The notes under the pieces are model-generated. The model did not search any database. It saw only the letters and a list, made by a program, of their open reading frames with translations, and was not told where the DNA came from. A DNA stretch of 64,000 nucleotides from Pirellulales bacterium. GTDB taxonomy: Bacteria; Planctomycetota; Planctomycetia; Pirellulales; JAEUIK01. Below are positions 41,437 to 43,270 of this stretch, piece by piece. Where the stretch lies: the NCBI GenBank assembly GCA_019694435.1, contig JAIBBZ010000020.1:1-64000 (forward strand), written 5' to 3'. Position numbers and translations under genes: made by a program. Numbering within the stretch: position 1 is the first letter of the stretch; every line of letters starts with the position of its first letter.

Positions 41437-42162
41437 ATGAATCGCGTCACATTCTGCTTCGGTAGCTGTATCGCCATAATTGCGATTTGTGGCGTTGGAG
41501 CTGCGTCCTTCGCTTCACGCTTTCAGACCGGCACCCAATTGCCGGTCCAGTCGAGCGATCTCCAGAAAGAGCATGTTCAGGCCGAAAGGACATGCTGGGA
41601 TGCCGAATCAGTGCTCAAGGTCCTGCGGGCACCGAATGCCTTGGAACGTCAGCAAGCCGAGGAGTCGGCTCAATTTGAATACGATCAGCTCGTAGCTGGC
41701 CTCATTAAGGTCATTAACGACCAACGGGATCAAGACTTTGACAAGGATCTTTATTTGCGAGCAGTGGCATTGCTTAACGGTCTTGGTGCATCCGCCGCGA
41801 TTCCTGCTCTCGTTGCCAATGTGGATGTACCGGTGGGGTCTCCATTGGCCACGCGGCTAGATCCGCTTGCGCATTATGCGTGTGCGAGGTCACTCGTCAC
41901 GTTCAGGGACCTGGCGGCGGATGAAATTGTGTTCTACCTCTGCAATACCCAGGATCCGGTTTATTGCGGCGTGCACGTTTGTAACCGAGTCGCTCGTGCC
42001 CAGCCGATATCAGATAAGGCGATTCAGTTGCTGGCATTTGTTCTGACAGAGATTGACGGAAAGGATGAGGCCATTGCACGCCTGGAGCAAGTCCCCGAAA
42101 CGCCAAATGTGAACCGCGTGTTGGACGATTTGCGGCGTGGGATAGTGTGGACCGACTTGTGA
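41437..42162 (+). CDS. Exported hypothetical protein, HEAT-like, AT-richer than neighbours
   Basis: ATG at 41437, with AAGGT just upstream, gives 241 residues. The N-terminus is hydrophobic (FCFGSCIAIIAICGVGAASF), a likely signal peptide. The rest is helical with a HEAT-like piece (LYLRAVALLNGLGASAAIPALV). Third codon positions are visibly less GC-rich than in the rest of the window, so it may have been acquired by transfer. The family is not recognised. The downstream insertion sequence lies 101 bp after its stop, and the transposase frame runs antisense into its last 150 bp. Confidence 0.65.
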   Translation: MNRVTFCFGSCIAIIAICGVGAASFASRFQTGTQLPVQSSDLQKEHVQAERTCWDAESVLKVLRAPNALERQQAEESAQFEYDQLVAGLIKVINDQRDQDFDKDLYLRAVALLNGLGASAAIPALVANVDVPVGSPLATRLDPLAHYACARSLVTFRDLAADEIVFYLCNTQDPVYCGVHVCNRVARAQPISDKAIQLLAFVLTEIDGKDEAIARLEQVPETPNVNRVLDDLRRGIVWTDL

Positions 42163-43188
42163 TTGGAGGCTGTCCCTGCCGAGAAGGCAGAAAGGGTGCC
42201 GGGAATGCTCCGTAGAAAACCCGCCGGCGACGCAGAAAAGGTGACGCAGAAAAGGTGTCAGGAATGCTCCGTAGAAAACCCCGCTGCGTCTGAGAATCAT
42301 CACGTTCAGCGTGATCGCTCGCAGGCAGAGTTCGCGGCATTGGGAACGATAGCGTCGCGCCCGCAGCGCCGAACCCAGCAGCCGCTTGAGCATACTGTCG
42401 ACGGTCTCGACCTGCCAGCGTTGCGTGTAGCGCGTGAGATATAACCAGCGTGCCATCCGCCTGCGCCAGAAACCGCTCGGCGGCTTCGCGGTCGGCCGGC
42501 CGATCTTCGCGGGAATGAACGTGTTCACGCCGCACTCCTCGCGGGCATACTCATGCACATGCTCGGCATCGTAGCCGGCATCGGCCACGAGTGTGGTGAT
42601 CGCGACGCGCGACAGGGCGTCGTCGAGCGCGGCGTGGAAGTGCGGCACGTCGGGCGCCGGTCCAAGGCCCGGCACGACGGCGAGGATCAAGTGGCTGCAG
42701 CAATCGCAGAGCAGGCCCGCCTTGGGAAACCGCCGATAGGTCGTGTTTTGCCAGGTTTTTCCGCCTTTCGCCCGGCGGCGCACGAAGTAGTCGCTCGCAT
42801 GATGCGACTCCCAGCCAGTGCCGTCGAGCGCGGCAAGGTGACTGCGCTTGCCCAACTTGCGCTGCTGCCGCGCTTGTCCGAGCGACGCCTCGAGCAACCG
42901 TCGCACCGGTCGGATCGACAACAACCGCTCGGCTGCTTTTTGAAACGTCGTGAAGTGCGGGATCGCATGCAACTCGATTGTCGCCGCCAGCTCGGTGCAG
43001 TCGCCCAGCAGCGCCGCCAGCTTGCGATAGTCGAGCTGCAAGAACTCCTTGAGCACGAGGCAAGCAAAGAGTTGCGGTTGGGTGAACTTCTTGGGACTAG
43101 AGCGATGCGCGTAGGGCGCGAGCGCCGCGCGGCCGATCCGATAGGCCACCGCCAGCACCCGCTTCGGACTCTTGGAAGTCGTACTCAT
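42010..43188 (-). CDS. IS5/IS4-superfamily transposase, reading out of the element
   Basis: ATG at 43188 opens a DDE transposase. An N-terminal helical domain (FTQPQLFACLVLKEFLQLDY) is followed by the catalytic Asp in LAALDGTGW, the second Asp in TLVADAGYDAEHV and the Glu in QRWQVETVDSMLKRLLG. The element-encoded part is about 308 codons. No stop is met before the left terminal repeat, which is read as GVFYGAF. Translation would continue about 84 codons into target DNA and stop at 42010, antisense to the hypothetical gene at 41437-42162. The out-of-element tail has no family character. Confidence 0.85.
   Translation of the reverse strand: MSTTSKSPKRVLAVAYRIGRAALAPYAHRSSPKKFTQPQLFACLVLKEFLQLDYRKLAALLGDCTELAATIELHAIPHFTTFQKAAERLLSIRPVRRLLEASLGQARQQRKLGKRSHLAALDGTGWESHHASDYFVRRRAKGGKTWQNTTYRRFPKAGLLCDCCSHLILAVVPGLGPAPDVPHFHAALDDALSRVAITTLVADAGYDAEHVHEYAREECGVNTFIPAKIGRPTAKPPSGFWRRRMARWLYLTRYTQRWQVETVDSMLKRLLGSALRARRYRSQCRELCLRAITLNVMILRRSGVFYGAFLTPFLRHLFCVAGGFSTEHSRHPFCLLGRDSLQSQVGPHYPTPQIVQHAVHIWRFGDLLQACNGLILSVNLCQNKCQQLNRLI
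42188..42226. repeat. Half-palindrome plus truncated insertion-sequence end
   Basis: CAGAAAGGGT and GCCGGGA (42188-42204) correspond base for base in position to the palindrome arm and loop at 42247-42263 (CAGAAAAGGT, GTCAGGA). They are followed directly by the 18-bp terminal repeat ATGCTCCGTAGAAAACCC plus GCCG (42205-42226), which matches the right, not the left, end of the intact element for 22 bp. This looks like the leftover of another insertion at the same relative site in a sister palindrome. Confidence 0.65.
42230..42257. repeat. 14-bp tandem repeat of the palindrome arm
   Basis: ACGCAGAAAAGGTG occurs twice head to tail at 42230-42243 and 42244-42257. The second copy forms the left arm of the palindrome interrupted by the insertion sequence. 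Confidence 0.75.
42247..42263. repeat. Left arm and loop of the interrupted palindrome; left target duplication
   Basis: CAGAAAAGGT (42247-42256) is the left stem and GTCAGGA (42257-42263) the loop. GTCAGGA recurs in the same orientation directly after the element (43254-43260), so it is a 7-bp target-site duplication. Confidence 0.8.
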
Positions 43189-43253
43189 CCAAGCGTGCTA
43201 CGCACGCCGAGCCGCTAGCGGATGAAGCTATCGGCGGGTTTTCTACGGAGCAT
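42264..43253 (-). mobile_element. Complete 990-bp insertion sequence, DDE transposase type
   Basis: Perfect 18-bp terminal inverted repeats lie at 42264-42281 (ATGCTCCGTAGAAAACCC) and 43236-43253 (its reverse complement). Both ends are flanked by the 7-bp direct repeat GTCAGGA. Outside these lie CAGAAAAGGT (left) and ACCTTTTCTG (right), which are complementary. Removing the element and one loop copy restores a 10-bp-stem, 7-nt-loop palindrome. The single gene is a transposase on the minus strand with an intact DDE set, so the copy may be active. I place it in the IS5/IS4 superfamily by transposase type; the exact group is uncertain. Confidence 0.85.
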
Positions 43254-43270
43254 GTCAGGAACCTTTTCTG
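43254..43270. repeat. Right target duplication and right arm of the interrupted palindrome
   Basis: GTCAGGA (43254-43260) duplicates the left loop; ACCTTTTCTG (43261-43270) is the exact reverse complement of the left arm at 42247-42256. Confidence 0.8.

Follow-up and report, generated by a model that had tools for sequence, protein, structure and literature searches.

An IS5-like insertion sequence in a REP palindrome of a Pirellulales bacterium and the probable preference of its family for REPs of the RAYT-bordering type

At positions 42247-43270 of the window, i.e. the whole stretch of 64,000 nucleotides of Pirellulales DNA analysed here, the parts follow one another as CAGAAAAGGT, GTCAGGA, an insertion sequence, GTCAGGA and ACCTTTTCTG, which raises the question of whether the surrounding palindrome is a preferred target of the element and, if so, how it is recognised. 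A re-reading of the sequence agreed with the preliminary description as to these bases. Within the window, the end motif occurs three times vs. 0.01 expected, and CAGAAAAGGT three times vs. 0.02 expected; a chance origin of the end motif and the arm is negligible there.

Concerning the element boundaries, the preliminary description proposed 990 bp with 18-bp ends and a 7-bp duplication corresponding to the whole loop of the palindrome. The comparison of copies led to other limits. An alignment of ends, which took in copies from the window's genome together with relatives from its order, from further planctomycetes and from plasmids, placed the terminus common to other copies at TGCTCC/GGCTCT, where conservation begins, and every copy with a duplication has 9 bp repeated immediately outside this terminus. 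Because the termini and duplications of the other copies set the boundary at this point, the element is delimited as in Table 1 and the duplication is 9 bp long; the outermost A/T of the supposed 18-bp ends belongs to the target DNA, its extra match being due to the palindromic nature of the target. The 7-bp parse was dropped, since it is ruled out by the 9-bp repeats in copies whose terminal bases differ. Folding of the rejoined site confirmed the 10-bp stem and 7-nt loop (-9.0 kcal/mol, z = -4.2), the duplication covering not just the predicted loop but also the base pair that closes it. As a whole, a palindromic target can make element ends look one base too long and the duplication two bases too short.

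Table 1. Positions of the insertion sequence, its target and the adjoining features in the window
Feature	Position	Strand	Basis
REP-like half-site CAGAAAGGG + TGCCGGGAA, same register, adjoining element end	42188..42205	+	sequence
Remnant end of another copy TGCTCCGTAGAAAACCCGCCG, matching the transposase-proximal end	42206..42226	+	sequence comparison
Second, tandem REP half-site CAGAAAAGGT	42233..42242	+	sequence search
REP palindrome, left arm CAGAAAAGG	42247..42255	.	sequence
9-bp target duplication, left copy TGTCAGGAA	42256..42264	.	sequence, copy comparison
Insertion sequence, 988 bp, 17-bp perfect terminal inverted repeats TGCTCCGTAGAAAACCC	42265..43252	-	comparison with C10, C2 and relatives
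DDE transposase	42289..43188	-	Pfam DDE_Tnp_1 PF01609, 2.5e-16; NCBIfam transpos_IS5_2
9-bp target duplication, right copy TGTCAGGAA	43253..43261	.	sequence, copy comparison
REP palindrome, right arm CCTTTTCTG	43262..43270	.	sequence

The 21-nt remnant end, which the preliminary description does not mention, is situated 59 bp left of the full copy, behind the half-site CAGAAAGGG-TGCCGGGAA and in the opposite orientation; it is probably what is left of an older insertion into a neighbouring REP.

The match to PF01609, which we take to be the current name of Transposase_11, points to a DDE_Tnp_1-type transposase, as in the IS5 family. The best NCBIfam model, transpos_IS5_2, scored 131.9 bits, under its cut-off of 140, and the nearest named plasmid relative, from Paludisphaera borealis (57%), is annotated as IS5 family. 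From the domain, this sub-threshold model and the annotation of relatives, the element can be regarded as IS5-like. Its 9-bp duplication, a feature of the IS903 subgroup of IS5, was present in 16 copies, and this length, together with the end sequence, makes the element a candidate member of that subgroup. No enterobacterial record was found by tblastn among the genera listed of the 113 plasmid matches (29 further genera not shown). As for the transposase frame, it leaves the element without a stop codon and ends at 42010. A stop inside the element is usually absent: of the 35 copies examined, about 22, a few of them with internal frameshifts, have a frame that continues beyond the element. 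In genome G166, three copies with the same transposase have frames ending 21, 31 and 118 codons outside, and the C-terminus is therefore set by the target.

The target itself was analysed through the register of the ends. Of 103 strict distinct ends, 51 have CCTTTT (at least five of six bases) at exactly positions 10-15 outward from the element vs. 0.4 expected, its background in the same DNA being 0.4% per position; the matches at offsets 8 and 10 are merely shifted versions of the same run. The 52 ends without this arm, a set that still contains some spurious motif matches, have T13 in 39, T14 and C10 in 30 each, C4 in 28 and G6 in 26 cases (counted outward from the element). In 14 of the 16 copies with a target duplication, the fourth base of one arm is complementary to its counterpart in the other arm. 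Many copies are thus found at a fixed REP position, and the family would count as REP-targeting, in line with the earlier view that a REP-type palindrome harbours the element. This preference appears strong without being absolute, because close relatives of the window's element within its own family (L025, L026, L029 and L191) are not REP-flanked and occupy non-REP sites. Copies with non-palindromic flanks, which the preliminary description considered as evidence against its proposal, do therefore exist among some relatives, although many ends still lie in REPs.

In our opinion, a REP palindrome like those found next to RAYT genes was very probably the site into which an IS5-like element with a DDE transposase inserted, its cuts being 9 bp apart. 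This transposase would prefer, and bind symmetrically, a double-stranded target of roughly AAAnnG-GGnCnGnCC-CnnTTT, for which REPs of the form AAAAGG-TGTCAGGAA-CCTTTT would be near-ideal matches and thereby hot spots. Alternatively, the transposase could recognise an extruded hairpin or cruciform structure and cut at the stem-loop junction: REPs form hairpins, the restored site folds well, and the 9-bp cut positions are near that junction. This is unlikely in view of the persistence of the sequence consensus at sites without a strong palindrome and of some ends in the window's genome located at GAAACGGGGACAGGTC sites, a REP type which, judged from the half-site present, folds poorly and without a long hairpin; moreover, DDE transposases normally use double-stranded targets. 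Since the weaker symmetric consensus at non-REP sites lets sequence recognition of double-stranded DNA explain the data, hairpin recognition is not required, though it would still fit the sequence data.

The window's genome possesses two more full copies, C10 (95%) and C2 (94%), plus several fragments. Considering all elements with paired ends, 16 of 34 have a 9-bp target duplication: TGTCAGGAA in the window, GTTCTGACC in C10 and GGCGATGGA in G003, others including AGTCAATTC, TACCTGACA, TGTCGGGAA, ACTCCCGAC, GTTCTGCCC and TGTCAGGAC. About half of the paired copies have none, and in several of these REP arms are present on both sides while the nine-mers differ. The two nine-mers of L160 are perfect reverse complements of each other; those of L119 and L112 almost are, but come near to being palindromes in themselves. 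Recombination between copies residing in different REPs would account for the loss of the duplication in many copies. Because the REPs at the two sides of a RAYT unit are in inverted orientation, two copies, one per REP, would give the pattern seen in L160 on recombining.

In the transposase tree, REP-flanked copies cluster beyond chance (only two of 500 shuffles gave a value as low), without forming one clade, and one well-supported Pirellulales clade is wholly REP-flanked (11 of 11 rows, three identical copies among them). The preference for REPs may be either old and often unmet, or gained more than once. Outside this order, relatives on two Roseomonas plasmids (L193 and L194) have ACCCCGTTT adjoining the element; the nine-mers flanking the L194 element come close to being reverse complements of each other, which may point to a palindromic target of another kind. 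On a contig filed as Patescibacteria (L032), which may be misbinned, there is a copy of 50% identity with a REP-like arm flanking one of its ends.

Five other Pirellulales genomes (G111, G051, G064, G050 and G046) contain the restored site AAAAGG-TGTCAGGAA-CCTTTT (AAAAGGTGTCAGGAACCTTTT) in intact form, the reversed control giving 0 or 1. The empty palindromes predicted to exist in relatives were thus recovered, the inferred empty site included, letter for letter. In G064 and G051, a RAYT-like gene is flanked on either side by the restored site or a variant differing in one or two bases, and in G077 by a TGTCAGGCA variant; in G111, such a gene has an intact REP on one side and, on the other, a REP holding an element end. 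The short contigs examined for G050 and G046 showed no RAYT. The arrangement characteristic of RAYT-associated REPs, inverted palindrome copies bordering a Y1_Tnp-like gene, was found in G064, G077 and G051. Because intact copies border RAYT genes in three of the five genomes, the restored site is considered a RAYT-associated REP.

Within the window, no RAYT was detected. Elsewhere in its genome, RAYT genes match Pfam Y1_Tnp and are bordered by GAAACGGGGACAGGTCC or AGAAAAGGTTCCAGGAACC. The 21-bp palindrome, at three mismatches or fewer, has only two loose matches in this genome, and its abundance was hence measured with half-sites. The half-site AAAMGGKKNCAGG has 25 matches in the 6.13-Mb genome vs. 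three for the reversed control, nine of them less than 4 kb from C2. REP-type half-sites are thus infrequent in the genome and cluster at a few places, several with an element end: in C20, C2 and C9, ends are in register with AAAMGGKKNCAGG-type half-sites, and at C10 a related half-site, CCAGAAACCGGGTCAGAA, flanks one end.

Broken element copies adjoin RAYT units or REPs at several places of the window's genome (L102 1195-1505, L012 1500-1880 and L019 1500-1690), suggesting repeated mutual insertion or deletion. In G111 (L148 185-1000), a RAYT unit has the 3' end of an element on one side and, on the other, roughly 25 bp repeated from the tail of that element, with another REP half beyond them, and in G064 (L144 2245-2370) about 65 bp of the start of a RAYT unit are duplicated between the element and the intact unit. 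The order of events might be the reverse, REP/RAYT units having been inserted beside the element, with the palindrome not being its target, as could be read from the RAYT units and REPs abutting broken copies in C2, C18 and C23 and from short element tails that adjoin REPs in G111 and the window. This is very improbable, since copies with a duplication, that of the window included, have the REP centre repeated on both sides and one arm at either end, the arrangement expected when the element inserts into a REP, and since intact REPs occur without the element. Finally, a palindrome arising by chance, for which there is nothing but scepticism towards a single site, is refuted by the 51 of 103 ends in register vs. 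0.4 expected.

Tentatively, and with more doubt than conviction, we suggest a planctomycete IS5-like lineage specialised on the palindromes needed by RAYT transposases, which would parasitise RAYT by occupying its recognition sites; insertion into the two REPs of one RAYT unit and subsequent recombination of both copies would then replace the RAYT gene. If true, such a replacement leaves the element between inverted half-REPs, an arrangement present in L160 and less evident in L119 and L112.

Several known systems resemble the present one. IS1397 and ISKpn1 (IS3 family) also insert specifically into the loops of REP/PU sequences, but have another transposase family and another duplication length; IS621, ISPpu9, ISPpu10 and ISPa11 (IS110 family) are likewise REP-specific, but use a DEDD-type recombinase with a different chemistry. 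IS903 (IS5 family) makes a 9-bp duplication and has a reported preference for symmetric targets, and many relatives found here begin with the IS903-like GGCTxTGTxGAA; to our knowledge, no REP targeting is known for IS903. As for the RAYT/REP systems (IS200-like Y1 transposases), they supply the palindrome and are the target, not the inserted element.

REP-targeting insertion sequences are already established (PMC1525189). The closest case is ISRm22 of Sinorhizobium meliloti, which has Pfam Transposase_11 and was found in REPs in ten of ten copies (Tobes & Pareja 2006, PMC1525189). It is similar to the present element in this domain, in residing in REPs and in insertion at the palindromy axis, and differs in its reported 6-bp direct repeats (vs. 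9 bp here) and host phylum; it is filed under IS4 in PMC1525189, the likeness being one of domain and description. For its copies with mismatched repeats, a recombination account similar to ours was given (PMC1525189). ISNm1106 of Neisseria meningitidis, an IS5-family element with Transposase_11, is often REP-associated (4 of 7 and 7 of 14 copies; Tobes & Pareja 2006, PMC1525189), an association that, compared by description, is looser than the present one. The initial opinion that REP targeting would be unusual for an IS5/IS4-like type is weakened by both elements (PMC1525189). No report of a planctomycete case was found in a literature search covering mostly papers outside subscription.

Judged from sequence comparison, the element would be a further REP-targeting insertion sequence, ISRm22 with the same Pfam domain being already known; notable features are the RAYT link, the recurrence across planctomycetes and a transposase frame usually without a stop inside the element. 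REP targeting by insertion sequences is thereby extended to planctomycetes and to RAYT-bordering REPs, in a family with enough independent copies to tell sequence preference from hairpin recognition.
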